Assembly (NCBI GenBank): GCA_030696285.1
Contig: JAUYSQ010000084.1
Location: forward strand, 1-33,557
Length of the DNA stretch: 33,557 nt
Direction of reading: 5' to 3'
From: Sulfuricurvum sp.
GTDB lineage: Bacteria > Campylobacterota > Campylobacteria > Campylobacterales > Sulfurimonadaceae
Within the stretch, counting starts at the first letter, position 1; each line of letters opens with the position of its first letter. Under the pieces are notes generated by a model. The model saw nothing but the letters and a program-made list of their open reading frames with translations, ran no database searches and was not told where the DNA came from. A program made the position numbers and the translations under genes. Positions 11,501-30,140 of the stretch are shown in pieces.

Positions 11501-11946
11501 AAAAAATTCTCTTTTTCTTAGCCCTCTTTGGAACTCTTTTGAGTGGTGCCGATATTTTAAAATTGGTCCAGACACTTGATCGTAATGACTCAAAAGCCTT
11601 TAATACAATGATCGTGACGATAGAAGATGCCAACAGCGCCCGCTCCGACAATAACAAAACTATCCTGATGTACGCGTCATGGATAGGAAATACGGAGGCC
11701 GTATACACTTTAGTAGAAAAAGGGGCTGACGTCGATGCAGCCGATAGCTCAAACGCGACGGCTTTGCATTTGGCTATCTGGAGAGATCACACCGATATTG
11801 CTCTCTACTTGCTGGAACACGGAGCATCGACAAAAGTAATGAGTTTAGACGGCATGACTCCGAGCGATATTGCAATCTTACGCTCCAATACCACAGTTAT
11901 GGAAGCTATTGAGAAAACAAAACCTAAGCTAAAAAGCTTATTTTAA
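11497..11946 (+). CDS. Exported ankyrin-repeat protein
   Basis: A 149-residue protein with an N-terminal signal peptide (MKKILFFLALFGTLLSGA), followed by about three ankyrin repeats: NKTILMYASWIGNTEAVYTLVEKGADVDAAD, SNATALHLAIWRDHTDIALYLLEHGAS and LDGMTPSDIAIL. It probably acts in the periplasm as a protein-binding module. The start overlaps the ferritin-like gene. Ankyrin proteins encoded beside catalase genes are known to protect or service haem/peroxide enzymes (Pseudomonas AnkB, Campylobacter Cj1386), so a similar partnership is an inference here. The 3' end overlaps ybgC by nine bases on the other strand. Confidence 0.88.
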   Translation: MKKILFFLALFGTLLSGADILKLVQTLDRNDSKAFNTMIVTIEDANSARSDNNKTILMYASWIGNTEAVYTLVEKGADVDAADSSNATALHLAIWRDHTDIALYLLEHGASTKVMSLDGMTPSDIAILRSNTTVMEAIEKTKPKLKSLF

Positions 11947-12321
11947 CGGTGCTATTCCGAGAAGAAAAGTTCTCTCTTCCTCGGGAATGATCGCAATATT
12001 GCCATCGAAGCCAAGATGGACAAGCTGTATTTCCATTTTAAAGAGGATCTCTTCATCACGATAAATACGTTGAATCAACGTAAAGGAAGCCTTTTTGATA
12101 CCCTTTAATAGCGTTTCAACAGTGAGTAAATTCCCAAATTTAGCACTTTTGATATAATCCGCTTCGATATGCTTCGCCACGAAATGACCCTCCGCCAAAA
12201 TAGGAGAACGCCCCGCATCAAAAAAAAGCTGGCTCCGCGCCCGCTCGCAAAAGTTTAAATAATTGGAGTGATACACTACTCCGCCAACGTCTGTATCTTC
12301 GTAATAGACTCGTATTTGCAT
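11938..12321 (-). CDS. ybgC: YbgC-type acyl-CoA thioesterase (hotdog fold)
   Basis: Hotdog thioesterase acting on acyl-CoA, often linked to the Tol-Pal envelope system. About 127 residues. The N-terminal signature VYYEDTDVGGVVYHSNYLNFCERAR, with the catalytic Asp at residue 11, is diagnostic. Several starts are possible: TTG 12327, ATG 12324, ATG 12321. The AAGGGG site is seven bases from the last, which is chosen. No tol-pal genes are in the window. The gene's 5' side directly abuts the integrase gene of the mobile element, so its original promoter region may have been replaced. Confidence 0.93.
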   Translation of the reverse strand: MQIRVYYEDTDVGGVVYHSNYLNFCERARSQLFFDAGRSPILAEGHFVAKHIEADYIKSAKFGNLLTVETLLKGIKKASFTLIQRIYRDEEILFKMEIQLVHLGFDGNIAIIPEEERTFLLGIAPLK

Positions 12322-12360
12322 CATCAAACCCCTTATTTGCGGTATTTTTATACTACTTTT

Positions 12361-13548
12361 TTAAAACGTGCCCATAATCGTGCCCAATACTGCGATATTT
12401 TTAAATCGTATATCATCATCTTCATTGAATGGTTTTGTATAAATTTTCAAAGTCATAGAAATATCTTTATGCCCTAATGTTTTTGATACCCAAGTGATAT
12501 CTGCACCTTTTGAAATCAACAATGATGCAAATGTATGGCGCAGATTATAGAGTACCCTAACTTTGACTCCACTTGCTTCCAGTATACGCTTGAAATTCAC
12601 TGCGATAACATCATGACTGTAAAAAATTTTATTTTCTGAATTATAAAAAAGATATTCTCGATCCCCGGACAACAATAGCTGATTGCGCAATGCTTCTTCG
12701 GTTATTGGTAACATGTCTATCGTTCGATTAGATTTTTCGGTTTTTACTGGTCCATCCTTACCAGCAATTCTTGTACGTTGAATCCGAATTGTTTTTTTCT
12801 CAAAATTAATATCTTTCCATTTTAATGCAACTGCTTCTCCAGGTCGCAAACCATTTCCACACATTATCTTTATGAAATTTATCATGTAGCCACGAGCATG
12901 TCCAATTATACATTCTAATTCTCGTTGTGTAAAAGGATCAAGTGGCACGGTTTCATCATCTTCATTAAATTGTTGGACAGGCTTTGGACGATCTGTAAAT
13001 CTAAGAGGATTTTCACTAATTTTTTTATTTTTATATGCACGTTCAAGTATTGTGAAGAATACGGACCTATATTTTAAGACTGAACTTGGTGAATAGTTTT
13101 CATATAAATTCAGTTTTTTGTTTTTTAGATATTGGGTTTTTAGCAATTGGTTTTGCCATATCTGTATTTCGTCAGGCAAAATTGATGTAATGATACGATT
13201 GCCAAAATATGGCTTTATATGGTTTATATAATGTCTTTCATTGCGATAGAATACATGATCCCTAACAGTCCCATCATATGCCAAAAAAAACATTTGAGCA
13301 TATTCATCTAATGTTAAGTCTTTCGAAGATTTGTCTGTGACTTCAATGATATGTTGTCCTTCAAGTCCATAAACAATGTCTGGTATAGTTTCCTTCTTTA
13401 CAATTTTCAAATTTTTTTCATCCGCGATGTAGTCGGTTGAACATCGTATTCTTTTTTTATCATAATAAAAATCAAGATGCCAGTGACCATCCCTCTCATT
13501 TATATTAAAATTGATATCTGCGTATTTATATTTAATTTTCTTAGGCAT
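12361..13548 (-). CDS. Phage-type tyrosine integrase
   Basis: Site-specific recombinase likely responsible for integration of the neighbouring element. It has 395 residues: an N-terminal arm-binding region, a SAM-like core-binding region at about 80-180, and the catalytic domain. Catalytic residues seen: Arg235 (GNGLRPGEA), Arg347 (NLRHTFASLL), His370 (KTLGHKDIS) and nucleophile Tyr380 (LKIYTK). The histidine normally two residues before the LR is replaced (YNLR, Tyr344), which occurs in some active family members. The start overlaps the upstream HTH gene by eight bases. The 3' end stops 39 bases from the ybgC start. Composition is AT-rich compared with ybgC and genes to its left. Confidence 0.95.
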   Translation of the reverse strand: MPKKIKYKYADINFNINERDGHWHLDFYYDKKRIRCSTDYIADEKNLKIVKKETIPDIVYGLEGQHIIEVTDKSSKDLTLDEYAQMFFLAYDGTVRDHVFYRNERHYINHIKPYFGNRIITSILPDEIQIWQNQLLKTQYLKNKKLNLYENYSPSSVLKYRSVFFTILERAYKNKKISENPLRFTDRPKPVQQFNEDDETVPLDPFTQRELECIIGHARGYMINFIKIMCGNGLRPGEAVALKWKDINFEKKTIRIQRTRIAGKDGPVKTEKSNRTIDMLPITEEALRNQLLLSGDREYLFYNSENKIFYSHDVIAVNFKRILEASGVKVRVLYNLRHTFASLLISKGADITWVSKTLGHKDISMTLKIYTKPFNEDDDIRFKNIAVLGTIMGTF

Positions 13549-13891
13549 GAGTACCCTTTGAAATTTTAGATAATATTTTTGATGCGCTCGGATGAATTGT
13601 TTTCTCAGTAAAATTATTCGCTATTTTTTCTTTTTTTGAACCCATTTTTTTGAACTCTATGATAGCAGTAGGAACAAAATGAAGTTCTCCACAATCATCG
13701 AAGAAATATTCAACATCTCGACGAAATCGTCCATCTTTGACATAATTTTCGATGGTTTTAGTAGAAACCGATAGAAATTTTGCAACCTGTTTTTTAGTTG
13801 AAAGCGAATCCATAGCCATTTGAAAAATTTCTCGATGAATTCGAAGCTCTTCTCTGATCTCAATTAATATATTTTCCAGTTCATTAAACAT
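13541..13891 (-). CDS. Excisionase-like helix-turn-helix protein
   Basis: About 116 residues. The central block STKKQVAKFLSVSTKTIENYVKDGRF is a MerR/excisionase-type winged helix-turn-helix, followed by VEYFFDDCGELHFVPTAIIEFKKMG, a beta-wing and helix as in small Xis/AlpA-like proteins. The ATG at 13891 (GAGG six bases upstream) is preferred over 13906, which lacks a ribosome binding site. It sits between the RepA-like gene and the integrase with overlaps at both ends. A directionality factor or regulator of the integrase is the natural inference. Confidence 0.75.
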   Translation of the reverse strand: MFNELENILIEIREELRIHREIFQMAMDSLSTKKQVAKFLSVSTKTIENYVKDGRFRRDVEYFFDDCGELHFVPTAIIEFKKMGSKKEKIANNFTEKTIHPSASKILSKISKGTHA

Positions 13892-15131
13892 ATTGAACCT
13901 CTCCATTAGTATCAGTTATGTTGTTATTTAACTTATCTGAAAAATCACATAGCTCTTGGCTTGCTGTATTATTGGGGTGTTCTGAGTTATCTGACTTATC
14001 TAATGTTGTATTCAGTACCATTAATTCATAAACATCCTTATTGTTTTGTTCACGAATTTTTTTGGAAGTCCAATATCTTCCTTTGCCTACTTGAATAACC
14101 CTATTTGTAGAATCTTTAGAAAATCCCATATCTCCAACATATTTCATGATCTGTGAATATATCGGAGACTCATCTGCATTTTTAATGAAATTCTCGATTT
14201 CAATTCGTATGGCATCATCTTCCTCAGACTCCTTAGCCCAGAATAAATCCACGCATTCCAATGAGTGGCTGGAAGATTGATAGAAAAATGCTGACTCTTC
14301 AATTTTTCCAACCCGATTTTTTAACGGTTTGAGGATAAATGTTTTTCTAAACTCATTATATTTTAGAATAAACGCATTACTTGTATCCTCTTCAAATGCG
14401 CTGGAACCGGCATATTGCAATTCTTGAAAATCACGTTGGGGCTTATTTGTGTGATGCAGAAAAATGACAGTAGCTCCCTGCCGACGGAGTTCTTTTAAAA
14501 CTGACATAAGCTCCGAAACATCTTTATTTTTGTCTCTGTCGCCCTTCCCCATAAAATTTTTAACTGAATCAAATACAATCATGAAATCCTTTAAATCTGA
14601 TGATTTTAATAATTTTATGAGTTGCCACATTTCAGCTTTTGTGGCATTGGAATCATGAATATATCGAAATCTATTGCCATGCATTTGCTTTAGCTTAGGG
14701 ATACCACGCTCATTCAACGTTGACCCCCCATTATCAGCGTCAATGTAAATGACATGCTTAATTGTTCCAGCTGTAAGTGCCATGTTGCAAGCTGCCAAAG
14801 TTATTAAACTTTTACCCTGCCCTGGTTTAGCAGCAATCATCAAAATTTCTGCCTTGACAATAACACCATTAAGGACATATTTAACCTCCATGTTTTCAAT
14901 TTTTTCCAGATCGATATCTAACTTATCAAGTATATTTTCGAATTTTTTATCGTATGACCTATTATCAACTAATCGTAGCTGATCTTGAAGATTCAATATC
15001 TCTTTTTGAATCAGTTCAATTTCTTCAAAAGTTGTAAACTCATTTCTTGAAAGTTCTTCAAGATAGGTTATACGTGCTTTTATACTTTGGAGATATTTAA
15101 CATTTTTCTCTATTTGCGTTATACTTCCCAT
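13884..15131 (-). CDS. RepA-like RecA-fold ATPase (AAA_25 type)
   Basis: A 415-residue protein resembling plasmid RepA replicative helicases and DnaB/RadA-like ATPases. Residues 5-65 form a coiled coil. The core has Walker A AAKPGQGKSLI (100-110), Walker B FMIVFDSV (183-190) and the sensor-like VIFLHHTNKP at about 222-231, followed by AGSSAFEEDTSNAF. The C-terminal 130 residues are variable, possibly a winged-helix region (YSQIMKYVGDMGFSKDSTNRVIQVGKGRY). In mobile elements such proteins drive autonomous replication. No primase or Rep initiator is recognised beside it. The 3' end overlaps the excisionase-like gene by eight bases. Confidence 0.85.
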   Translation of the reverse strand: MGSITQIEKNVKYLQSIKARITYLEELSRNEFTTFEEIELIQKEILNLQDQLRLVDNRSYDKKFENILDKLDIDLEKIENMEVKYVLNGVIVKAEILMIAAKPGQGKSLITLAACNMALTAGTIKHVIYIDADNGGSTLNERGIPKLKQMHGNRFRYIHDSNATKAEMWQLIKLLKSSDLKDFMIVFDSVKNFMGKGDRDKNKDVSELMSVLKELRRQGATVIFLHHTNKPQRDFQELQYAGSSAFEEDTSNAFILKYNEFRKTFILKPLKNRVGKIEESAFFYQSSSHSLECVDLFWAKESEEDDAIRIEIENFIKNADESPIYSQIMKYVGDMGFSKDSTNRVIQVGKGRYWTSKKIREQNNKDVYELMVLNTTLDKSDNSEHPNNTASQELCDFSDKLNNNITDTNGEVQYV

Positions 15132-15161
15132 TTGAACTTCTTACTTTCCCTAGTGAGTAGA

Positions 15162-15830
15162 TTAAAAAACTAAAACGAGCTGTGAGTTGCCACTTGCTGC
15201 TCGTTCAACATTAATAGCTTTATTTGTATAGCCATTTAATATGTCTGATATATCAAACCCTAATTCAGTACACTTGCTCTTAAACCATTCTTCATCGAAA
15301 TCCTCCTCTCGAAAATTATCTAGCCAAAATTGAAAAAGCCTTTTTGTTGTGTTTGATGGATCAATTTTTGCAATTTTATTCGCATCTTCACGCATAAGTT
15401 CGAGTTCCAGAAAAGAATCATCTGAATGAACAGAATCATCGAATATTATTTTTACAATAGCTGCATGTCGTGAATTTCTCGAATAATATTGATCCGACTT
15501 TTCAGAATGAAATCCACTTAAAAGTGTTTGAAGAAATTCTTTCGCATCGTTTGTATCAGCGGCAATTTGCATTTTACGAAGAGTTGTAAACCGAATCAAG
15601 CGTATATCACCGAGTCGATTTCCGGTGAGAAAAGCAGATAGTCGATCTCGAATGATTCCAATTGGTCGTTCTACGTCTTTTCCGAAAAATAATGCTTCTT
15701 CAATTTCGCCAGAAAATATCATGTGTAACCGGTTTTCGCTTTCCAACAATTCAATAACCCATCGATTGATTCCTACGATTAATATTTCTTCTATGATTTT
15801 ATTTCGCATAAACTGTTTGACAGACACCAT
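15162..15830 (-). CDS. Unknown protein upstream of the RepA-like gene
   Basis: A 222-residue soluble protein that I do not recognise. The N-terminal half has hydrophobic/basic helices (FMRNKIIEEILIVGINRWVIELLESENRL) and a basic stretch, DIRLIRFTTLRKM. The C-terminal half is acidic (NFREEDFDEEWFKSKCTELGFDISDIL). AAGGG lies upstream of the ATG. It is the first gene of the minus-strand integrase operon and is divergent from the CI-like repressor, which probably controls it through the palindromes between them. A replication or regulatory role in the element is a guess from position only. Confidence 0.75.
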   Translation of the reverse strand: MVSVKQFMRNKIIEEILIVGINRWVIELLESENRLHMIFSGEIEEALFFGKDVERPIGIIRDRLSAFLTGNRLGDIRLIRFTTLRKMQIAADTNDAKEFLQTLLSGFHSEKSDQYYSRNSRHAAIVKIIFDDSVHSDDSFLELELMREDANKIAKIDPSNTTKRLFQFWLDNFREEDFDEEWFKSKCTELGFDISDILNGYTNKAINVERAASGNSQLVLVF

Positions 15831-15886
15831 TAGCTACCCTTGATTTTAAGATGCTTGAAATGTATAATCAGTTAACATAAACAACA

Positions 15887-15909
15887 TATATAAACTAAAT
15901 AGTTATATA
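15887..15909. promoter_or_regulatory. Operator-like inverted repeat 1 (CI-like control region)
   Basis: TATATAA and TTATATA (15887-15893 and 15903-15909) are perfect seven-base arms spaced nine bases apart. They lie in the divergent region between the unknown gene and the CI-like repressor. Confidence 0.45.
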
Positions 15910-15919
15910 TTAACGATTT

Positions 15920-15936
15920 AGTGTATTATCTACACT
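15920..15936. promoter_or_regulatory. Operator-like inverted repeat 2 (CI-like control region)
   Basis: AGTGTA-N5-TACACT has perfect six-base arms (15920-15925 and 15931-15936), 27 bases before the repressor ATG. Size and place fit a dimeric repressor operator. Confidence 0.5.
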
Positions 15937-15963
15937 TTAAACTTAAATGGAGATTATTTTTAC

Positions 15964-16653
15964 ATGATTGATACCAATATTGTGGTAAAAAATTTGTTGG
16001 TTAATTTGAATTTAAAATCTGAAGCTGAGTTAGCGAATAAACTTGGCATGACAAAAAATGCATTTTCCATGTTAAAACAGAGGAACTCGATTGGAACTTT
16101 AATAGAGCGCTTATTGAAATTGGAAGAAATTGAAAAAATTTCATTTGACTATATTTTGACAGAAAACACAAACTCTAAAAACATTTTTTTATTGAGTAAA
16201 AAAATTTGCAATGTATTTAGTGAGGCTGAGATTAAAAGAGTTGAGATAGATTTACGAAACAATCTTGATGATCAAGAAAATTTGCAACAAATTTTGGAAA
16301 AATTCAAGACGTTAAAAGGTGTTGGTTTTGCTACGAAGCTTTCAGAAATGCTTCATGGACGAGGAGAACGAATGTCTGTTATTTTATATCAGTTTTTACA
16401 GCACATTACTGATAAAGTCTTGATACCTGTTGAGAAAGAATATGCAAAAAGAAACTTCATTAATGCTTTAAAGAGTTTTGAACAGCGTGGGCTTTATGGA
16501 CTACTATTCACTGACCAAGACAAAAAAAATTTACTGAATTGGCTAGAACATGAATTAGATGATGATGACTATTATATGATATTATCCGATATAACTGGCA
16601 TGGCAGAAAAACTCAAGCCACTCTTAAATATTTTTAACAGACCTATGGTCTGA
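15964..16653 (+). CDS. CI-like phage/element repressor
   Basis: A 229-residue protein. The N-terminal 60 residues look like a CI-type helix-turn-helix (LKSEAELANKLGMTKNAFSMLKQRNSI...LLKLEEIEKISFDYILT). The C-terminal part shows no LexA/CI-type Ser-Lys peptidase motif, so SOS autocleavage is not predicted; it has a different helical domain (FATKLSEMLHGRGERMSVILYQFLQHI). It is transcribed away from the integrase operon across a region with two palindromes, the usual layout of a lysogeny-type switch. GGAG lies upstream of the ATG. Its 3' end overlaps the convergent TraK-like gene by 30 bases. Confidence 0.8.
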   Translation: MIDTNIVVKNLLVNLNLKSEAELANKLGMTKNAFSMLKQRNSIGTLIERLLKLEEIEKISFDYILTENTNSKNIFLLSKKICNVFSEAEIKRVEIDLRNNLDDQENLQQILEKFKTLKGVGFATKLSEMLHGRGERMSVILYQFLQHITDKVLIPVEKEYAKRNFINALKSFEQRGLYGLLFTDQDKKNLLNWLEHELDDDDYYMILSDITGMAEKLKPLLNIFNRPMV

Positions 16654-16818
16654 TTTAATATTTTTTTTGACATATTGCAAAAAAGCTGTATAACTAAATT
16701 TTGCATATTCAGGCAGATCTGCATTTACGATATTCCACGTACTTCTAATCGAAGCCCCCTTGCCTATTAAATCCTCGATTTGAATTTTAAAATAATCAAT
16801 TTTACTTTTTTTTGCCAT
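16624..16818 (-). CDS. Small TraK-like protein (putative relaxosome accessory)
   Basis: A 64-residue basic protein. Its pattern (IEDLIGKGASIRSTWNIVN, about 10 residues, then FSYTAFLQYVKKN) resembles the conserved block of IncP-type TraK-family proteins, which bind oriT DNA beside the relaxase. The match is from memory of the family pattern, so the assignment is tentative. AGGAG lies seven bases before the ATG. It is divergent from the 16944-17459 gene across a strongly palindromic region, as expected for an autoregulated DNA-binding protein. No relaxase is seen in the window. Confidence 0.6.
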   Translation of the reverse strand: MAKKSKIDYFKIQIEDLIGKGASIRSTWNIVNADLPEYAKFSYTAFLQYVKKNIKSDHRSVKNI

Positions 16819-16845
16819 TTTTTCTCTCCTAAAGTTTGTACATTC

Positions 16846-16929
16846 CTATACGAAATTTTCAACTTTATTTCGATTTCTTCAAAATATAAATAAAAAAACT
16901 CCAAAAATTTCGTATAGCAATATACGAAA
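16846..16929. promoter_or_regulatory. Palindromic control region or oriT-like site
   Basis: Three copies of TATACGAAA lie here. CTATACGAAATTTT (16846-16859) and its exact complement (16904-16917) form 14-base arms 44 bases apart. The second arm also pairs with TATACGAAA at 16921-16929, giving a perfect nine-base-arm palindrome around GCAA (16908-16929). It lies between divergent genes and could be an operator, an origin of transfer, or both. Confidence 0.6.
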
Positions 16930-16943
16930 CCAAGGAGAATAGA

Positions 16944-17459
16944 ATGCAAACTATCATAAATCGTATCTTGAAACAGTCTGAAGAGATGCAAAAGGCATCT
17001 CTTCGATACTACACACGCTGTTCGCATGATGTAAAGGTTTTAATTATGACCAATAAAACCCCCATATTTCATCAGTTGAGGCAAAAAAATAGTGATGTTG
17101 ATAAAGCTACTATTGAATATTGCGCCATGGTGATAGCGATACAAGATCAGCAAAATCAAGAAAAAATGCTTTCACATAAATCATTTGGGGACATGACACT
17201 CGAAGAAATTGAAAAACTTTCTGATTTGCAAGCTTCGAAATTTAAGTCAAAACAGAAAAAACGGGGAGAAAAAGGAAATTTTTTATTAGCTCACTGGGCA
17301 GAAGTCCGTAGATTACGCCTTGTAAAAGGATTTAGTTTCAGAGATATCGCTGACTACCTGACTCAGAGATATCGTGATTTTGAAGTGTCGAAATCAAAAG
17401 TCCAAAGCATGTGGACACAGCTAGAAAAAGAACAAAATAAGGAAGCAAATCATGGATGA
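16944..17459 (+). CDS. Unknown DNA-binding-like protein of the mobile element
   Basis: A 171-residue basic protein. The C-terminal block HWAEVRRLRLVKGFSFRDIADYL...FEVSKSKVQSMWTQLE looks like a helix-turn-helix with the same theme (G-x-S-x-R-x-I, then a serine-rich turn and a terminal W) as the TraK-like protein opposite. The middle is charged (KSKQKKRGEKG). AAGGAG lies six bases before the ATG. It is first in a three-gene plus-strand operon, overlapping the next gene by eight bases. A DNA-binding role at the adjacent palindromes is inferred; no family name is claimed. Confidence 0.75.
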   Translation: MQTIINRILKQSEEMQKASLRYYTRCSHDVKVLIMTNKTPIFHQLRQKNSDVDKATIEYCAMVIAIQDQQNQEKMLSHKSFGDMTLEEIEKLSDLQASKFKSKQKKRGEKGNFLLAHWAEVRRLRLVKGFSFRDIADYLTQRYRDFEVSKSKVQSMWTQLEKEQNKEANHG

Positions 17460-17985
17460 AATAATATACCCAGTAGATAAAAAAGCAAAGCTTAATGTTA
17501 CCCATGTGACTTTGAACACAAGGACTAAAATGAAACTATTGAGAGTTTTTGAAGTTGACCCACTCAATACTAAAAAACGCTATATTCGCAATTTCATCAT
17601 CATGTTCGACAATGAAATCGTCAGTGATGTCTTAGCTGATATCAATCAGCTAAGAGAAGAGATTATGAGCTTTGACCAAGGCGATAAATTGAATCATTTT
17701 TTTCAAGTCGGACAGATAAATGAAAACAACAAAAAGCTCAAGAAATCATCTGCCAATATCGATACAGAAAACATTTCAGAGAATGATAAAAAAGTCATTA
17801 AAACGCTTACGTATCAACTTCAATCCGGTGAAATCATTCGCCTAAGCAAGTCAGAATGTCGCGGGATTATTCGCAGTTGGAATATGGCACTAGAAGGTTT
17901 CACCTTTTCAAGATTATCGGAGCATCCTCTTGAGCTATCTCTTTATTCTTTGAGTGATCTTCTTCATGAAAATGGATACATCTAA
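17452..17985 (+). CDS. Unknown protein, middle gene of the element operon
   Basis: A 177-residue soluble protein not recognised. The N-terminal part is basic (KKAKLNVTHVTLNTRTKMKLLRVFEVDPLNTKKRYIRNF). The C-terminal part is helical and mixed. There is no signal peptide or membrane helix. AAGGA lies upstream of the ATG. It overlaps both neighbours (eight bases with the gene before, one base with the gene after: TAATG), so the three genes are translationally coupled and probably work together. Confidence 0.75.
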   Translation: MDEIIYPVDKKAKLNVTHVTLNTRTKMKLLRVFEVDPLNTKKRYIRNFIIMFDNEIVSDVLADINQLREEIMSFDQGDKLNHFFQVGQINENNKKLKKSSANIDTENISENDKKVIKTLTYQLQSGEIIRLSKSECRGIIRSWNMALEGFTFSRLSEHPLELSLYSLSDLLHENGYI

Positions 17986-18842
17986 TGGATACCGACACAC
18001 TTGTTTTGATCATATTTATTTCAGTTATTATTGTAATGGCTGTGATCATTGGTTATTCAATTAGCATCTTCTTAGAAGTGCCAATTAAAAAGGATGAAGT
18101 ATCTAAAAAATTAGACATAATTCGAGAGGAAGAAGTGATATCGATTCTTCCTCTATCACCCATATTTGCCATCTACAAGCCATCAATTTTTTCTAAAAAG
18201 TTGACACAAGATTTATATCGCAGTGTTGTGATTTATAACCGTTATTTTTTTAATGAAAAGTGGATGGAAACCTTTTGTGAAATATTATCTCTGCTTGAGC
18301 TGGCGGATGACGTTACAGTGATAAAAGAGAACGGAAAAGTCATACACGTAGTGAATGGAACACGAGGAATGCAAGGCGCTCAAACAGCTGAGCTTTATGA
18401 AGCCTATAACTTCTATGAACTATGCATAAAGTCTTTGAGTTTATACATAGATCACAATTCAGATAATGTGGAAAAAATTAATGAAAATGTCATTGCAATT
18501 TTGCTGTTGCATATCGATGATATTGTTCCGATTCACCATTGGAGTTCTGCTCAAGATAGTCATGCGAATCGACGCAATGAACTTGTAAAATATTTGACTC
18601 GAAAGTTGTCATCAGATCAACAAAACTACATCTTAGAACTCATCGAAGCACTTGATAATAAGTTAAAGACTGTTGCACATGTAAATGAAATATTGTCGTG
18701 TTACTTTGTAGCTAAATCACAACTTAAAACCGTTACCAAGCTTGTCATAGATAACGAACAGTTTGATGAATGGCCAATATATTTACCAACACAACGATTG
18801 ATAAAAGAATATCTTACACTTGAACAAATTGAGAGATTATAA
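17985..18842 (+). CDS. Unknown membrane-anchored protein of the element operon
   Basis: A 285-residue protein with one N-terminal transmembrane helix (about residues 5-29, LVLIIFISVIIVMAVIIGYSISIFL), followed by about 250 mainly helical residues that probably stay in the cytoplasm. No catalytic motif is recognised. A central NVIAILLLHIDDIVPIHHWSSAQDSHANRRNEL block contains several histidines. It is the last gene of the operon; the non-coding region after it has repeats and palindromes. A role in element transfer, maintenance or exclusion is possible but unsupported. Confidence 0.75.
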   Translation: MDTDTLVLIIFISVIIVMAVIIGYSISIFLEVPIKKDEVSKKLDIIREEEVISILPLSPIFAIYKPSIFSKKLTQDLYRSVVIYNRYFFNEKWMETFCEILSLLELADDVTVIKENGKVIHVVNGTRGMQGAQTAELYEAYNFYELCIKSLSLYIDHNSDNVEKINENVIAILLLHIDDIVPIHHWSSAQDSHANRRNELVKYLTRKLSSDQQNYILELIEALDNKLKTVAHVNEILSCYFVAKSQLKTVTKLVIDNEQFDEWPIYLPTQRLIKEYLTLEQIERL

Positions 18843-19279
18843 AAAAATGACAGTAAAATAAATTGTTTTGCTGTCCAGTATGTTGTCCAGTAAGTGGTTT
18901 TTTTGTTGATTTTTCAGATTTAACCTTGGCACTTACCAAACTCCGTATTTATAGGCTTCTAAGTATGAAAAACTACAAAAATAGAAACCGAGAAAAATCG
19001 CTAATAGCTCATAAAAAACTTCTATGTCAATAATGGACATTATTCATTTTATACTTTCTGTATTAAAACAATCAACATAACATGATATTTAATCGGTGGA
19101 GCTCAAAATCTACCTATAGGTGATTTTTGACCATCGTAACCAAAAGAGCCGAGATTGCGCTTTACTCGACACAATAAAGAAGATTGACTTAACAAAATTG
19201 CCGGCCTGCGGCTTAATCAGTGCAACATTTTTTTTAGGAGAATACCATCCGAGGCCCAGTACACCACCAATCGACTGAA
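18843..19279. other. 437-base non-coding region rich in repeats and palindromes
   Basis: No convincing gene. Seen in order: a direct repeat TGTCCAGTA (18872-18880 and 18884-18892); a perfect palindrome AATAATG-GA-CATTATT (19029-19044); an imperfect hairpin, TCAAAATCTACC with GGTGATTTTTGA (19103-19130); and the arms of a larger imperfect inverted repeat (19178-19299) that runs into the start of the recombinase gene. It could contain a recombination site or an element end. Confidence 0.6.
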
Positions 19280-19299
19280 TTGTTAAAATCAATCTTTGT
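19178..19299. repeat. Imperfect inverted repeat of about 120 bases at the recombinase gene start
   Basis: The left arm contains AAGATTGA, then TTAACAA, then GGCCTGCGG. The complement of the right arm contains AAGATTGA, TTAACAA and GGCCTCGG in the same order. The arms differ by small indels, and about 17 extra bases lie in the right arm before the GGCC block. The right arm covers the TTG start of the recombinase gene. Confidence 0.45.
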
Positions 19300-20167
19300 T
19301 GCAGGTGCAAAAAAGACAGAGCGCATTGATCCAAATCATCCGCATCATATGAAGATTTCTTCATACGGAACCGCTTCAACTTTTCGTGCCGTGTGGGAGA
19401 ATTTTTTTCACTATTTGCGTGAGCATTGGAACATCAAAGATGCAGAAAAAATCACAGGAGAAATGATCGCGGCTTACATGGACTATAAGAGCGAATATCA
19501 TGTCAGCAAACAGTATTTAGAGAAGATCAGTTCGGCACTTGGCAAATTAGAAATAGCACTCCAATGTTATACAAAAAACAAGTATGGCGAATCAAAATAT
19601 TACGATTTTTCGATTCGACAATTCATACTTAATGAAGCTAGAAATTTGGATTTGGTAGCCAATAATTATCACAATCGCGCCTATGAAAATCCCGAATTTT
19701 TAATTGCATCATTGTCCGATCCTTTACATCGTATGGCCGCACAAATTCAGTACGAAGGTGGAGCTCGTTTGGAGGGTATTTCGCTTATAAAATTGGAACA
19801 ACTTCATGGTATCAAATATGATACTATTACTAATTCAGATAAAGCCATTATTTTTACAAAAGAGAAAGGTGGTAAGGAAGATGATGTATTAATATCAATT
19901 GATATTTACGACCAACTCTTAGGCTACATTACTGCAAACAAACGCTTTAAAATTGATCGTCAAAAATATTCAACTGACATTCGTGAAACATGTATAAAAT
20001 TAGGAATTCCAGCAGAAGGTTCGCATGGATTTCGATGGAACTTTGCAAAGCGTCGCATGATGGAATACGCTCGTGCCGGTTACACCTATGAGCAAAGTTT
20101 ACAAGCTGTAAGCTGGGAGATGAAACATAGACGTGCGTCGATCAGTGAACATTACCTAGGGGGTTAA
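19280..20167 (+). CDS. Second tyrosine recombinase, divergent integrase-like
   Basis: A 295-residue recombinase unlike the integrase at 12361. All catalytic residues are visible: Arg163 (GGARLEGIS), Lys196 (KEKGGK), His249 and Arg252 (GSHGFRWNFAKRR), His283 (EMKHRRAS) and nucleophile Tyr292 (HYLGG at the C-terminus). The N-terminal half is a helical core-binding domain. The start is uncertain: TTG at 19280 has no good ribosome binding site, while ATG at 19349 would remove the conserved-looking N-terminal FVAGAKK block. An AGGAG upstream points to a non-start ATC (19247). The 5' end may have been altered by rearrangement. It could serve another element or act on the adjacent inverted repeats. 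Confidence 0.85.
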   Translation: MLKSIFVAGAKKTERIDPNHPHHMKISSYGTASTFRAVWENFFHYLREHWNIKDAEKITGEMIAAYMDYKSEYHVSKQYLEKISSALGKLEIALQCYTKNKYGESKYYDFSIRQFILNEARNLDLVANNYHNRAYENPEFLIASLSDPLHRMAAQIQYEGGARLEGISLIKLEQLHGIKYDTITNSDKAIIFTKEKGGKEDDVLISIDIYDQLLGYITANKRFKIDRQKYSTDIRETCIKLGIPAEGSHGFRWNFAKRRMMEYARAGYTYEQSLQAVSWEMKHRRASISEHYLGG

Positions 20168-20562
20168 TTTTTTTTATTGATTAGTTCACACGCTTGATCA
20201 AATTGTAGCAAACAAGAACGCTCTATTAATTGCTTGACTCTCTCAAAATTCTTTTCGACACCTTCACCTCGATAATACATTCCTGCTGCATAATAGCAAC
20301 TCGGTCCATAGTTCTTATCACAAGCACGTTCAAATAATTGAACGGCTTTAGTGAGGTTTCTATCTACACCGTCTCCATCATAATAGCATCCCGCAAGCGC
20401 ATCGCATGAAAGTGGTGAATTACCTCTTTCGCATGTTTTTGAAAGATAAGAAAAAGCATTTTTCATGTCTCCTTTCAAAAAGGCGGCAAATGACTCTGAA
20501 TCACTAAGATCAGTAGCAGAAATATTGCAAATCAAAGTTCCTATTAGTAAAAAAAATTTCAT
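20164..20562 (-). CDS. Exported Sel1-repeat (Hcp-like) cysteine-rich protein
   Basis: A 132-residue protein with a signal peptide (MKFFLLIGTLICNISA) and two to three Sel1-like repeats (ALAGCYYDGDGVDRNLTKAVQLFERACDKNYGPSC, then AAGMYYRGEGVEKNFERVKQLIERSC). Cysteines are spaced C-x7-C as in Helicobacter cysteine-rich proteins, where they form disulfides in the periplasm or outside the cell. It lies three bases after the related 209-residue protein and is probably co-expressed. Hcp proteins have been linked to weak beta-lactam binding and host signalling; the role here is unknown. Confidence 0.85.
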   Translation of the reverse strand: MKFFLLIGTLICNISATDLSDSESFAAFLKGDMKNAFSYLSKTCERGNSPLSCDALAGCYYDGDGVDRNLTKAVQLFERACDKNYGPSCYYAAGMYYRGEGVEKNFERVKQLIERSCLLQFDQACELINKKN

Positions 20563-20565
20563 CCT

Positions 20566-21195
20566 TTACATACTTTCATTCATCATTATTTGATAATTAT
20601 TACATCCGTTTTTATTACCATATTCGCACCCTTTTTTTGAGTATTCTTTTGCTTTTTGAAGATCTTTTGAAACGCTTGTTCCATTGTAATATTCAAAGCC
20701 CAAATCAACACAAGCATCTGCTTTACGTTCTTTGCAAGCGCGTTCATAAAGTTCGACTGCTTTGAATTTGTTCTGAGGAACACCGTGTCCAAACATATAG
20801 GCTTGCCCCAATGGAAAACACCCTATTGAACGTTTCGTATCACAAGCTTTTGTAAAGTATTCGGCAGCTTTTTTCAAATCTTTAGGTACTCCAGTACCTT
20901 CAGAATAGAGTATTCCCAATGAATTGCACCCTGTTTCCTCTCCAGCTTTACAAGCTTTCGTATATAGCTGAATGCTTTTGCTGACATCTGCTTCAACTCC
21001 TTGTCCGATCAAATATAGATTCCCAAGAAATGAACATGATATGGATACACCTAATTTACATTCTTTATTGAGTGCATCTTTGGCATTGAAATAATCTCCT
21101 TGCATGTAAGCAGCCAAACCATTAACCTCTGCAAATACTGGTGAGCTTACGATAATTGATACTACTAAATATTTCAAATTCTTTACTAAAAACAT
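20566..21195 (-). CDS. Exported Sel1-repeat (Hcp-like) protein, longer paralogue
   Basis: A 209-residue protein. It has an N-terminal hydrophobic signal (LKYLVVSIIVSSPVFA) and about five Sel1-like repeats, e.g. NSLGILYSEGTGVPKDLKKAAEYFTKACDTKRSIGC and VDLGFEYYNGTSVSKDLQKAKEYSKKGC. Regular C-x7-C pairs are seen. It probably forms a superhelical periplasmic or secreted scaffold. It is first of a two-gene unit with the 132-residue paralogue and divergent from the XRE regulator, whose operator region they share. Confidence 0.88.
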   Translation of the reverse strand: MFLVKNLKYLVVSIIVSSPVFAEVNGLAAYMQGDYFNAKDALNKECKLGVSISCSFLGNLYLIGQGVEADVSKSIQLYTKACKAGEETGCNSLGILYSEGTGVPKDLKKAAEYFTKACDTKRSIGCFPLGQAYMFGHGVPQNKFKAVELYERACKERKADACVDLGFEYYNGTSVSKDLQKAKEYSKKGCEYGNKNGCNNYQIMMNESM

Positions 21196-21230
21196 CGCTT
21201 TAAGCCTCTCTTTTTTCTTTTTACATAGCT

Positions 21231-21296
21231 ATTACTATTTGTGCGAAGGAGTATAACATAAGTACACTCCAAATAGTAATAACTAATTATTTGGAG
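21231..21296. promoter_or_regulatory. Overlapping inverted repeats in the Sel1/XRE divergent region
   Basis: CTCCAAATA (21267-21275) and TATTTGGAG (21288-21296) are perfect nine-base arms. ATTACTATTT...GGAGT (21231-21252, split by seven bases) complements ACTCCAAATAGTAAT (21266-21280). The two structures share the middle copy, so they exclude each other. The right arm contains the GGAG ribosome binding site of the XRE gene. Confidence 0.55.
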
Positions 21297-21301
21297 CCGC
21301 A

Positions 21302-21556
21302 TTGAGAACATTGGATGATTTGAGTCAGGACGATATTGACGAGCTCTACCGACGCATCGGACGAAACGTCAAAGCGCTTCGTGAGCTCAATGGACTCACT
21401 CAGCTTGATCTTGCGTTCGCGATGAATCTCAAATCCCCCGGTCTAATCTCTCAGAGTGAGCTGTATTTGAATACGCAGCACTTCAACATAAAGCACCTCT
21501 ATCAAATAGCCCACATTCTCGAATGCGACATCACCGATTTTTTTAAGGTCGATTGA
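21302..21556 (+). CDS. XRE-family helix-turn-helix regulator
   Basis: An 84-residue protein made almost only of an XRE/Cro-type HTH: IGRNVKALRELNGLTQLDLAFAMNLKSPGLISQSEL...FNIKHLYQIAHILECDITDFF. The TTG start at 21302 is supported by GGAG five bases upstream, and that site lies inside an operator-like repeat, so autorepression is likely. It is divergent from the Sel1 pair and convergent with the small-protein cluster. It probably regulates one of these; which one cannot be told. Confidence 0.85.
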   Translation: MRTLDDLSQDDIDELYRRIGRNVKALRELNGLTQLDLAFAMNLKSPGLISQSELYLNTQHFNIKHLYQIAHILECDITDFFKVD

Positions 21557-21564
21557 TTCTAAAC

Positions 21565-21888
21565 TCAAGCGATAGTACGCTGAAAGTGAGACCTCTTTGG
21601 GGTGGAGTGTTTTTTTCGCTCCCCCTGATAATAATCCGACCATTCACTGCTTTTATGATCATTGCACGCTGTGAGCATCAGCAATACTTGCTCATCATCA
21701 GTGTTGGTCGTGTTGGTAAAGATATAGCTATGTCCTAGATAGAGATAGCGTACACATCCGTTCTCCAGTTCAAAAGACTTACCTCCGCGAACTATTGATT
21801 CGGCGTAGCGCACCGCCGTGGGTTTGGATTTAATGCCGAACCGTTTTTTGAGACGCTTGAGGGCATGATGGGTGAGGACAATAGTCAT
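21565..21888 (-). CDS. Small basic protein of unknown function
   Basis: A 107-residue protein beginning MTIVLTHHALKRLKKRFGIKSK, with a mixed alpha/beta pattern (GGKSFELENGCVRYLYLGHSYIFTNT...EQVLLMLTACN) and a basic tail. The short size and basic helix-plus-sheet pattern recall toxin-like or DUF4258-like folds, but I do not assign one. GGAGG lies before the ATG, two bases after the end of the preceding 35-residue gene. It is the last gene of a minus-strand cluster of small proteins. Confidence 0.7.
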   Translation of the reverse strand: MTIVLTHHALKRLKKRFGIKSKPTAVRYAESIVRGGKSFELENGCVRYLYLGHSYIFTNTTNTDDEQVLLMLTACNDHKSSEWSDYYQGERKKHSTPKRSHFQRTIA

Positions 21889-21889
21889 C

Positions 21890-21997
21890 TTATCCTCCGT
21901 AGGTGTTCATTACCAATGCATAAAGGGCACCGGAACCAAATACAATCACATCGATCAAGAGCAACACTCCAGCAATACGTTTGGCTTTAGTCATCAT
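21890..21997 (-). CDS. 35-residue single-helix membrane protein
   Basis: Starts MMTKAKRIAG, followed by a hydrophobic helix (VLLLIDVIVFGSGALYALVM) and the tail NTYGG. The ATG at 21997 has GGAGG eight bases upstream; an earlier in-frame ATG at 22003 is only two bases from it. It overlaps the 3' end of the 109-residue gene. The size and layout (basic N-terminus, one helix) resemble small phage or holin-type membrane proteins, but no family is claimed. Confidence 0.6.
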   Translation of the reverse strand: MMTKAKRIAGVLLLIDVIVFGSGALYALVMNTYGG

Positions 21998-22316
21998 GAC
22001 CATACCCTCCGAAACTACTTCCATGGCCGCTAAAACCATGACTGCTGCCACAGTAGTGCAGATCAACACCATAAGGGTTACCGCAGACATCGACACACCC
22101 CATCATCGGTAAGCTGGTTGCAGGATTAATCTCCGTTTCTTGGTAATCCTGGTGAGATCCAAACGAATTCTCGTTGGGGGTGAAGAGATCGAAATCGTTG
22201 ATAAAGTTCCCGCTGCCCTGCTTCCACGTCTTTGTAGTAGATAATGACGCTTTGTAGCTTAGGAACATGCGAATAAACAGATAGACTAGTACGATCAATA
22301 CTAATACTTTTAACAT
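21987..22316 (-). CDS. Membrane-anchored Gly/His/Ser-rich protein
   Basis: A 109-residue protein with an N-terminal transmembrane helix (MLKVLVLIVLVYLFIRMFL), a polar middle, a VDVCGNPYGVDLHYCG block with two cysteines, and a low-complexity tail (SSHGFSGHGSSFGGYGHDD). The tail could bind metal; this is inference. AAAGGA lies before the ATG. It overlaps the next gene by 11 bases. Function unknown. Confidence 0.7.
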   Translation of the reverse strand: MLKVLVLIVLVYLFIRMFLSYKASLSTTKTWKQGSGNFINDFDLFTPNENSFGSHQDYQETEINPATSLPMMGCVDVCGNPYGVDLHYCGSSHGFSGHGSSFGGYGHDD

Positions 22317-22373
22317 CGTCTTTCCTTTGTCGTTTCATTGTTGTGTAAATCTTTCGTTATAGTGCCAGAGCGA

Positions 22374-22553
22374 TTAAAACCGCTCCAGTAGACTTCTCAC
22401 CCAAGGAGTATCTCTATGCGTGAGGATATGAGATAGCAGTGCTCCCAGCACTACACCGACTATACTTTGCAGATAGTCGGTGAGTGTTTGGGCGTGCCAT
22501 GCTAATAAAAATACGGGGAGGTAGAATCCTCCCCAGATAATGAACCGTTTTAT
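22374..22553 (-). other. Open frame for a small membrane protein without a standard start
   Basis: A 58-codon frame right after the 157-residue gene reads KRFIIWGGFYLPVFLLAWHA and so on, then a second hydrophobic stretch (LQSIVGVVLGALLSHIL) and a basic tail ending LLERF. The composition looks like a real two-helix membrane protein, but no ATG, GTG or TTG opens it; an ATA overlaps the preceding stop. A sequencing error, a frameshift or a chance frame are all possible. Confidence 0.35.
22507..22536 (-). terminator. Strong hairpin after the 157-residue gene
   Basis: On the minus strand GGGGAGG and CCTCCCC form a perfect seven-base GC-rich stem with a six-base loop, followed by GTATTTTTATT. It is a good rho-independent-like terminator for the genes upstream, although it lies inside the frame at 22374-22553. 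Confidence 0.5.
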
Positions 22554-23023
22554 AGGTTCTCTTTGGGGGTTGCTTGATATCCTCTCAAGAGGATACGGAT
22601 GATTCTGCTCACAAGCGCCACAGCGATAAGTACTATGGCTACAACTAATTCAATATACGATTGCATCGCCGAAGGGGGTGACGTCACTAACGCTCCTACA
22701 ACACCGCTCAGTACCACCGCGATAAAGAGGATCAGTTTATATGGAGGTTTCGTAGCTTTAACGCCTGTTTTTAACAGCGCATCGATGTGCTTATCCATTT
22801 GAACCATCGAATACTCCACCGCTACGATCGTATAGATCATGATAAGCGGAATACTTTTATGGGCGGTATCGTTCATACTCCACACCATGATGGCGGTTCC
22901 GACACTGAGCAGGATAAAGAGAACAAGAAGCCATCGGTTTTTCGTATGGGTATAGAGCATAATACCTCCCAGTACCACCATACACAGCTCAACTACTAAG
23001 ACAATTCCATTTTCCAAACTCAT
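22550..23023 (-). CDS. Polytopic membrane protein of unknown function
   Basis: A 157-residue protein with about five hydrophobic segments (about 6-26, 30-50, 57-74, 95-114, 122-146). A short cytoplasmic loop carries MVQMDKHIDALLKTGVKATKPPYK. No known transporter or enzyme motif is seen. AGGGG lies before the ATG, which overlaps the stop of the 103-residue gene (ATGA), so the two are translationally coupled. A strong terminator-like hairpin follows. Confidence 0.75.
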   Translation of the reverse strand: MSLENGIVLVVELCMVVLGGIMLYTHTKNRWLLVLFILLSVGTAIMVWSMNDTAHKSIPLIMIYTIVAVEYSMVQMDKHIDALLKTGVKATKPPYKLILFIAVVLSGVVGALVTSPPSAMQSYIELVVAIVLIAVALVSRIIRILLRGYQATPKENL

Positions 23024-23331
23024 GATCGTTCCCCTTTCTCAAGGAGTTCAAGTTTGAGCTTTAACTCTTCAATCTGAAGAGTTTTTAGGCGCTGATGCTC
23101 TATAAGGATAATAACGCTGTCCAGTTCCGCTTCACGCAGGTGTTCACTCACTTCCCCTTTGAGCTTGGCGTAGTGCGGAGCATTCCAAACGCTATCTTGA
23201 CCTCCGAAAATAATCTGTTCCATTTCATCGCCTCGGGTGTGAAATGCAATACGATCATCGATAAGATCACATATCTCTTGGTGTGATAGACATGCTTTGT
23301 TTGATTTAAAAAGACATTTTAGAAATTCCAT
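23020..23331 (-). CDS. Small soluble protein with C-terminal coiled coil
   Basis: A 103-residue protein. The first half contains CLSHQEICDLIDDRIAFHTRGDEMEQIIFGGQDSVWNAPHYAKL. The last 45 residues are a leucine-rich helix (LDSVIILIEHQRLKTLQIEELKLKLELLEKG), likely a coiled coil. GGAG lies seven bases before the ATG. It is the first gene of the small-protein cluster, downstream of a perfect palindrome. Function unknown. Confidence 0.7.
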   Translation of the reverse strand: MEFLKCLFKSNKACLSHQEICDLIDDRIAFHTRGDEMEQIIFGGQDSVWNAPHYAKLKGEVSEHLREAELDSVIILIEHQRLKTLQIEELKLKLELLEKGERS

Positions 23332-23701: not shown

Positions 23702-25270
23702 TTATTCATTAATAATTTCCAAATAATACTCACAAGCTTCTGAGGGAATAAATTCTACTTTAATTTGATCTCCCACTTTCAAATCACTGATATTTTTTTC
23801 GATTTTAGGATAAACACTTGTTAAATTGTATTTCAATGCAGGTAATTGAACATTTTTACCAAAAATTCTTATAGAGCTTACTAATTTTTGTTCCATAGAA
23901 ATAGGTACGGGATCCAAACAATTACACCATTGTTTGATATTATGAATATTTTCTTCACAAATAATTCCCATTACAGCAGAAGCTTTGTCCCGATTTGTTA
24001 AAGTAACTCTTATATTAGACAGAGCCATATAAAATTGCTCCAATATTTCAAATTCATAATGAGTATATTGTATTTCTTCAAAGATAAAATTTATTCCCAA
24101 TGATTCAGATAGTTTTCTAATTATCAATATATATCTGAGAGGAATAAACAATTCATGCAATTCATTATTATCTATCAATTGATCCTGACAAATCTCTAAT
24201 ATTTTATTTCCATTGACTTCAAAAACTCCATTCATAGCCCAATGATTTTTAATGCACTCTATAAAATCATAAATTTTAGTGAAATACGGCAGAGATAAGA
24301 TATCTAATCCTAGCCATTTAGTAAAATTGATCCTTAATGTAAAAGAGGATACTTCACGTTTTTCTAATTTATCTTTTGTAAAGGAAAAATTCACCAATTC
24401 TCCACAGGATGTCCCTTCGAATAAAAAAGCTTTATCTCCTTGAAAAAGTTCTCCATGAAAATCATCAAGAATAAAAATAGGTTCACTACTTTTAGATAGC
24501 CAAATTTTCATAATAGACTTAATACTTTCAGACACAAATGAGAGCGTAGCTGGTTTAAATGTATGTTGATCTTGTAAAAACTCAAAAATTGGTGATCCAC
24601 TAAGATGAAAATTTTCAACTGGAATACTGATCGGCTTACCATAATTTGTCATATCAGAAAAAAAATCGCTAGAATTATTATTTTTATCAAGAGTAAAATT
24701 TAAATGAATATCTATCGGATCATCAGAATTAGCAAGAAAAGTATATTTTGTAGATTGATTAACATATTCGACGTTAACGTGAAATCTAGGATCTACCTTT
24801 TGTAGGATATTTGCAGTTGCAATAGATGTATTTTTCAACATATCCGGTACAAATATATGTGACATTCCAGACATGGCAGCAGTCAATGTATTAATTGCAT
24901 CGAATTTGCCAGGCAACTTATTGCCCATCTCTTCAGAAGCTAACTGTTCAGCTTTTTGCTTCCATTCAAGCAGTACATCAACTGGGAATGCACAAGGATC
25001 TTTGTCAATTTTAACCGAACAGCTCGAACAAAGCCAAATAGCGTTTTCAATTGATTTCCTTTGTTCAGTAGTCATGGATGGATCAAATCGTGGTCCACCG
25101 GCAGAAGCTGCGCAAATATGTGCAGCCACTCCAATACTATACGCTTTAAATTTTTCTTGAGTTGGACCAACCGTAACAACCCTACAATCTGGATTGGAAC
25201 ATCTATAAGCTACTCTTTTTCTAAGAATATCAATAGTTGGCTTTTTAAAATCATCACGATTATTCTTCAT
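23702..25270 (-). CDS. HNH-nuclease-domain protein with a large unknown C-terminal region
   Basis: A 522-residue protein. The first 110 residues are an HNH-type zinc-finger nuclease of the kind found in defence effectors. Seen: YRCSNPDC (Cys24, Cys29), GVAAHICAASAGGPRFDPSMT (His51), RKSIENAIWLCSSC (Asn76, Cys81, Cys84), KIDKD and FPVDVLLEWKQKAE. The third His of the name is replaced, as is usual in this subfamily. The remaining 400 residues match nothing I know; they alternate sheet and helix and could be a sensor. The gene is strongly AT-rich. It is last in the five-gene defence run, 22 bases after the DUF4209 gene. AGGG lies before the ATG. DNA cleavage is inferred. Confidence 0.85.
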   Translation of the reverse strand: MKNNRDDFKKPTIDILRKRVAYRCSNPDCRVVTVGPTQEKFKAYSIGVAAHICAASAGGPRFDPSMTTEQRKSIENAIWLCSSCSVKIDKDPCAFPVDVLLEWKQKAEQLASEEMGNKLPGKFDAINTLTAAMSGMSHIFVPDMLKNTSIATANILQKVDPRFHVNVEYVNQSTKYTFLANSDDPIDIHLNFTLDKNNNSSDFFSDMTNYGKPISIPVENFHLSGSPIFEFLQDQHTFKPATLSFVSESIKSIMKIWLSKSSEPIFILDDFHGELFQGDKAFLFEGTSCGELVNFSFTKDKLEKREVSSFTLRINFTKWLGLDILSLPYFTKIYDFIECIKNHWAMNGVFEVNGNKILEICQDQLIDNNELHELFIPLRYILIIRKLSESLGINFIFEEIQYTHYEFEILEQFYMALSNIRVTLTNRDKASAVMGIICEENIHNIKQWCNCLDPVPISMEQKLVSSIRIFGKNVQLPALKYNLTSVYPKIEKNISDLKVGDQIKVEFIPSEACEYYLEIINE

Positions 25271-25292
25271 TTATACCCTATCTATATTTAAG

Positions 25293-27059: not shown

Positions 27060-27076
27060 TTTATATCCTTTAAAAA

Positions 27077-30112: not shown

Positions 30113-30140
30113 TCAAACCTCCATTACCCTCTAAAACTTA

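Follow-up and report, generated by a model that had tools for sequence, protein, structure and literature searches.

We consider it likely that the locus in the window (the whole stretch of 33,557 nucleotides analysed here) forms the backbone of larger site-specific islands, a family that carries anti-phage genes. The original prediction had bounded a small mobile element by the genes of the integrase Int1 and of U285 (12361-18842). Mobility stood, the integrase lying at a fixed ybgC site of which att copies are present in two relatives; the small size of 6.5 kb did not, as the bounded islands of these relatives measure 22.1 and 26.5 kb. The right end at 18842 is wrong: it omits Int2 (19247-20167), a second tyrosine recombinase that is part of the element, with the structured region before it, and most likely also leaves out the defence cargo to the right. 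Int2 and the preceding structured region are better conserved in the family than any other part. In E. coli, defence genes are carried by mobile islands (PMC10121019); such carriers have been little described in Campylobacterota. The island family described here, bounded in two relatives, has a target site, a backbone and cargo, and can be used for finding more defence systems.

Target site, backbone and cargo of the islands

The left chromosomal flank contains a gene (11938-12327, reverse strand) that we take from its sequence to be a ybgC-type acyl-CoA thioesterase; it is the target gene, and homologs of it occur in 36/41 genomes of the genus. The left copy of the attachment-site core is at its 5' end (12298-12315, forward strand), and distal copies of the corresponding sequence are present in G363 and G391, two genomes of another genus of the same family. 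Int1 of the window faces and abuts ybgC, and the GC content of the window drops at Int1 from 0.40-0.43 to 0.30-0.35. An Int1-type integrase abuts ybgC in three genomes of the genus (its own, G035 and G005), and one with 42-45% identity occupies the same site in G391 and G363. At the other ybgC loci of the genus that were examined (n=29), an Int1 homolog is directly upstream in two (G035 and G005; 36% identity), while one, that of G024, has a degenerate Int1 remnant (E 1e-8). Comparison with related genomes and the search for syntenic copies showed that G391, G363 and G005 have the whole Int1-Xis-Rep-U222 block next to the same gene, ybgC. The element at ybgC in G035 (L126:4511-17429) is of the Int1-Xis type and has very different contents, by eye a 1002-aa protein, a ParA-like protein and a TraD/VirD4-looking ATPase, which indicates that other elements use the ybgC site too.

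In G363 and G391 the backbone has the order Int1-Xis-Rep-U222 ... TrK171 ... Int2, and a copy of the ybgC site delimits it. The att-bounded island of G363 (22,124 bp) is closed by a distal 39-nt copy of the ybgC start with 35/39 identical positions, against 25 for the best among 60 shuffled versions of that 20-kb stretch. This genome has a second Int1 in tandem, and the 39-nt copy lies between it and the cargo. The island of G391 (26,532 bp) also has a ybgC-start copy, matching the consensus start at 18/18 positions. Two other ways of placing the right boundary were rejected. Int2 was dropped as the right end of the element, the att copies of G363 and G391 being found 14-19 kb beyond it, and genomes sharing the TmtA-like gene of the window gave no boundary. 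No distal att copy was found in 12421-33557 of the window, nor within 3 mismatches elsewhere in the 295-contig assembly, in which four weaker matches lie in ordinary genes. We therefore take the island to extend beyond the end of the contig and to measure probably at least 21 kb. Both its right end and the assignment of 20.2-33.5 kb to it are putative. Two observations count against this extent: the GC content beyond 28.5 kb is close to the chromosomal value, and the TmtA-like gene has a patchy distribution (5/41 genomes) and stands elsewhere without the window neighbours.

Family searches agreed with the original prediction for the genes of the left arm, including those of no known family. 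Int1 (12361-13548, reverse strand) is a tyrosine recombinase (Pfam 5.7e-24) that resembles integrases of Helicobacter and Nitratiruptor phages (26-37% identity). It is followed on the same strand by an excisionase (Xis)-like small HTH protein (13541-13906) with a weak match to phrog_66 (1.9e-5), a RepA-like AAA_25 ATPase (13884-15131; 3.8e-15) and U222 (15162-15830), which is without family and has homologs in the same place in G391, G363 and G005. The CI-like repressor (15964-16653, forward strand) matches Phage_CI_repr at 2.1e-5. With Rep as the query, genome contigs gave one poor archaeal match and the viral contigs of IMG/VR no relatives. As a mechanism, we propose that Int1, aided by the Xis-like protein, would insert the island at the 5' end of ybgC and excise it again. 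With every insertion would come a copy of the ybgC start that preserves the gene, in line with the att copies observed in the relatives. Once excised, the circle may be replicated by the Rep-like ATPase; the CI-like protein, together with a small HTH protein and its palindrome, may keep the island silent.

The cargo, mainly anti-phage systems, would lie around and beyond Int2. In the window, small accessory genes (20164-23331; two Sel1-repeat genes, an HTH gene and others) are putative members of the element. The probable cargo is a set of defence genes on the reverse strand (23702-33509) coding for an HNH-type effector-like protein, PDC-S39, a TmtA-like protein and a type III R-M system, the Mod gene of which is cut by the contig end; its membership is likewise presumed. 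The first three, of which the TmtA-like ATPase has a NOV_C end, form a cluster at 23702-30112 directly before the type III R-M genes, possibly a single composite defence system. The G363 island carries type I R-M genes (HsdR, HsdM, HsdS) and CBASS-type cargo (SMODS synthetase and SLATT_4), in addition to HipA, a Bro-N protein, a class D beta-lactamase and a YgjP-like protein. Among the six proteins scanned in the G391 island are ThsA-like, type IIG R-M, PDC-S02 and PD-Lambda-4-like proteins. BrxL and PglZ are beside the module in G005 and G001, AbiEii occurs at three Int2 loci, and HipA is beside Int2 in L141, L144 and, weakly, L049. Some further gene arrangements were observed. The two Sel1-repeat proteins of the window (20164-21195) look secreted and are directly behind Int2, the first gene and Int2 overlapping tail to tail by their last four bases. 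The beta-lactamase gene of G363 (L056:8232-9038; bla_class_D_main 2.3e-85) lies between the structured RNA and the TrK171 module. Recurring small genes in islands and Int2 plasmids (L045:9362-12482, L043:17461-19209) code, by eye, for short HTH proteins, WGR-like proteins and a 133-aa protein of one family.

Int2 and the TrK171 module

Int2 (19247-20167, forward strand) is the best-conserved gene of the element family across Campylobacterota, with matches in 42 of 397 genomes of the phylum and 49-63% identity at 34 places. The family start MRGS.YYQ, read from homologous sequences, puts its likely start at the ATC codon at 19247 (19280 in the ORF list). At least 10 of 35 Int2 genes appear by eye to start with TTG, ATT or ATC, which suggests tight control of Int2. 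In the 20 of the 34 places that were aligned, the catalytic residues R163, K196, H249, R252, H283 and Y292 are invariant (20/20) and form the full R..K..HxxR..H..Y set of tyrosine recombinases; Int2 also matches phrog_1 (2.5e-6). An Int2 profile found no PDB sequence at E<=1e-3, and we therefore regard Int2 as a very divergent tyrosine recombinase. It matched no NCBIfam family, and hence no integron integrase, nor any of 50,697 phage records, and neither the single sequence nor the alignment found relatives in IMG/VR. The AlphaFold2 model from the single sequence is of low confidence (pLDDT 45). In G165 (L173:359-1799), Int2 and a serine resolvase adjoin genes that look by eye like phage tail genes.

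Full-length Int2 and TrK171 are each present in 27 of 397 genomes and co-occur in 23 (hypergeometric 2.5e-29). They are on the same contig within 10.5 kb at 20/34 Int2 places and within 40 kb at 25/34, and profile searches found TrK171 members near two of the other nine (L142 and L145). The pair is also held by the Aliarcobacter faecis plasmid pAFAEC (Int2 60%, TrK171 2.5e-42) and by plasmid pGLOV01 of Trichlorobacter lovleyi, a member of another phylum (Int2 profile 5.4e-66, TrK171 profile 3e-14), where genes for a membrane protein and HipA adjoin it.

TrK171 (16944-17459, forward strand), present in 27/397 genomes, is a conserved core protein with an HTH-like C-terminal part; among 24 relatives, one has a weak DUF5338 match. 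It is followed on the same strand by U177 (17452-17985), a conserved core protein without assigned function and without a match in the 50,697 phage records, and by U285 (17985-18842), which consists of an N-terminal membrane helix and a soluble part and gave a low-confidence AlphaFold2 model (single sequence, pLDDT 40). PDB profile searches with these three proteins found nothing credible. Divergent from them is TrK64 (16624-16818, reverse strand), a small HTH protein of 64 aa. The designation TraK-like originally given to it is not borne out, since TrK64 has no Pfam or NCBIfam family at E<=1, and its PHROG matches, all to families of unknown function, have E>=0.11. It resembles the C-terminal part of the serine resolvase in L173 (E 3e-5). 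The palindromic divergent region between the two genes (16825-16938), as originally described, is real and recurs in 4/4 elements holding the TrK64/TrK171 pair, the sequence in the window differing from the others; as judged from sequence, it fits an operator. We propose that TrK171-U177-U285, the structured RNA and Int2 would form a second conserved module, which also accompanies other integrases and occurs on plasmids as well as in another phylum. Most likely, Int2 would serve recombination of the cargo or of a replicon.

The structured region upstream of Int2

The structured noncoding region (18982-19246, forward strand; matched by our model R1 at 18982-19232) contains, on the same strand, helices P1 and P2 (19094-19149) and the GACTTAAC motif with an H-type pseudoknot (19182-19229). 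Among 35 Int2 homologs of 49% identity or more, 32 have the motif GA[CT]T.AAC at a distance of 71-124 bases ahead of the family-aligned position; of the three without it by pattern, L079 has a variant, and L075 and L078 have another gene there. In 20 sequences picked as showing the pseudoknot type, the pseudoknot pairs in 97.4% of cells, and this falls to 23-42% when the partners are slid, a control that is free of inflation by relatedness, with a structure still written from the same sequences. The pseudoknot is not universal among Int2 loci, since in the remaining 12 to 15 there are simple hairpins or no clear structure at this place. Compensatory changes affect 6/8 pseudoknot pairs in 19 cells (shuffled mean 4.1, reached by 0/500), and P1/P2, which pair in 89.6% of cells in 14 sequences, have a covariation score of 0.447 versus 0.190 (0/500), both shuffle tests being inflated by sequence relatedness; the count of doubly changed P1/P2 pairs alone is not unusual (93/500). 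From six sequences, RNAalifold recovered P1, P2 and the second pseudoknot stem unaided. G.U pairs far outnumber A.C pairs on the coding strand (17 to 1), which indicates that the coding strand is the folding strand. The window sequence alone folds no better than shuffles (z -0.75, 40/200), and its pseudoknot stem forms only 3/5 pairs in the alignment.

Strong matches of model R1 adjoin Int2 in all but two cases. In G413 (L048), a DUF6088-AbiEii operon separates the RNA from Int2 by 1.6 kb, an arrangement which suggests that the RNA is kept even away from the Int2 start, and G165 has an RNA copy on a contig without Int2. A genome search with stricter filters, which loses weak matches, found model R1, which reaches the close RNA type only, in 8/298 genomes. 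Three candidate features were rejected: a GCTC/GAGC helix as pseudoknot partner of P1, which breaks in 3/14 sequences; upstream-box repeats flanking Int2, which occur in L051 and are absent in the others examined; and 50 stretches in viral contigs fitting the DNA pattern of helix P1, which are due to chance, none reaching E<0.1 with R1 (best 0.79). The region before the Int2 relative of pGLOV01 (L237:5427-5872) also looks structured, with long inverted ends and a possible pseudoknot.

The role that we rank first, and give about an even chance, is that of a predicted cis-acting leader of Int2 or its operon; such a leader would most likely control the expression of Int2. A predicted trans-acting or Int2-bound RNA is a clearly less probable role. 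It is also rather unlikely that the region is a folded single-strand DNA site of Int2, similar to attC, at which Int2 gathers cargo. The cargo differs from the base after Int2 onward, and the toxin-antitoxin operon of G413 between structure and Int2 would suit such a site; however, no second copy flanks the cargo, and Int2 has no integron-integrase match. The wobble pairs on the sense strand (17 G.U versus 1 A.C) are as expected for RNA, and single-strand DNA would look alike. Returning to an RNA, a dedicated partner that positions or licenses recombination by Int2 and lets the islands take up and exchange defence cargo is a speculative and very doubtful proposal; if true, Int2 would represent a second class of RNA-assisted DNA recombinases, unrelated to the first. 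The IS110 bridge-RNA systems (PMC11208158) are alike in having a noncoding RNA gene beside the recombinase. Their recombinase belongs to another family, and the region described here is likened to them by position, not by guide loops or RNA binding. There was no Rfam match at E<=0.05 for 12 loci and no credible one for the window, and in the open-licence literature searched we found no description of an RNA beside a tyrosine recombinase; this combination of a very divergent recombinase with a conserved structured RNA thus had no match in either source.

Mode of spread and comparison with known systems

Relaxase, coupling protein, capsid, terminase and packaging genes were not found among the window ORFs scanned, in agreement with the original statement that capsid, relaxase and coupling genes are missing. 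The G363 island proteins scanned (10 + 4 + 1 plus backbone), some of which are without family, include no relaxase, no coupling protein and no capsid protein; packaging, capsid-remodelling and terminase genes are absent among the proteins scanned in both the window and this island, genes without family remaining. The relaxase and type IV secretion genes by which an ICE is recognised were not found among the ORFs scanned in the att-bounded 22.1-kb G363 island. Likewise, the window family searches and the G363 proteins scanned yielded neither a known oriT protein nor a relaxase, which would mark a mobilizable element. The lack of a relaxase would disfavour self-mobilization, not help in trans. 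The original proposal of a hybrid satellite or mobilizable island is supported in neither part by anything tested.

A mobilizable element that uses the conjugation machine of a helper, with TrK171/TrK64 binding the origin of transfer, appears fairly improbable. The small DNA-binding proteins next to a palindrome, the membrane-anchored partner and the plasmids that carry the module would fit it, but a relaxase and a coupling protein were not found, nothing matched TraK, the palindrome is inside the divergent promoter and reads as an operator, and 9/10 plasmid records with an Int2 relative are typed as non-mobilizable. Still less probable is a new kind of phage satellite with PICI-like integrase, Xis, Rep and CI-type control that spreads in helper-phage capsids. 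The int-xis-rep-repressor order, the likeness of Int1 to the Helicobacter and Nitratiruptor phage integrases, the island size of 22-27 kb and the defence cargo would suit a satellite. Against this, the ORFs scanned include no capsid, terminase or packaging gene, and the absence of Int2 and U177 from 50,697 phage records and of Rep and Int2 relatives from IMG/VR would weakly disfavour it. That the locus is a decayed, immobile chromosomal defence island keeping recombinase relics is very unlikely: remnants exist, such as that in G024, but the window backbone genes are all open, and Int2 keeps its R, K, H, R, H and Y in 20/20. As to whether these genes are the decayed remains of a known, larger prophage or ICE, relatives confirmed the larger island, but the backbone in them is intact and the island is no known prophage or ICE.

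We found no published description of these islands in the open-licence literature searched. The dusA-associated genomic islands (PMC4482086) are similar in that they are tyrosine recombinase islands that carry diverse cargo and are inserted in a conserved protein gene, at its 5' end. The islands described here differ in using ybgC as target, in having a second recombinase module, conserved and with a structured RNA, and in their host phylum. GInts (PMC5385486) and strand-biased circularizing elements (SE; PMC10214605) share more than one tyrosine recombinase, defence or resistance cargo and the lack of a relaxase. In both, a single operon at one end codes for three recombinase-like proteins; it is ginABCD, which also codes for a small HLH protein, in GInt and intA-tfp-intB-srap in SE. 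The islands described here lack such an operon, and their two recombinase genes are oppositely oriented and separated by 6 kb; the absence of a ginABCD-type operon at one end is judged by gene order, so that they are set apart from GInt by arrangement and not by gin sequences. The E. coli defence islands on mobile elements (PMC10121019) also combine a site-specific mobile backbone with exchangeable defence cargo, but the backbone genes here are unrelated to the families tested. CampyICE1 (PMC8743540) is likewise an integrative element, from Campylobacter, with an integrase and a XerC-type recombinase, and differs in its size of 70-129 kb, its conjugation genes and its tRNA-Met site.
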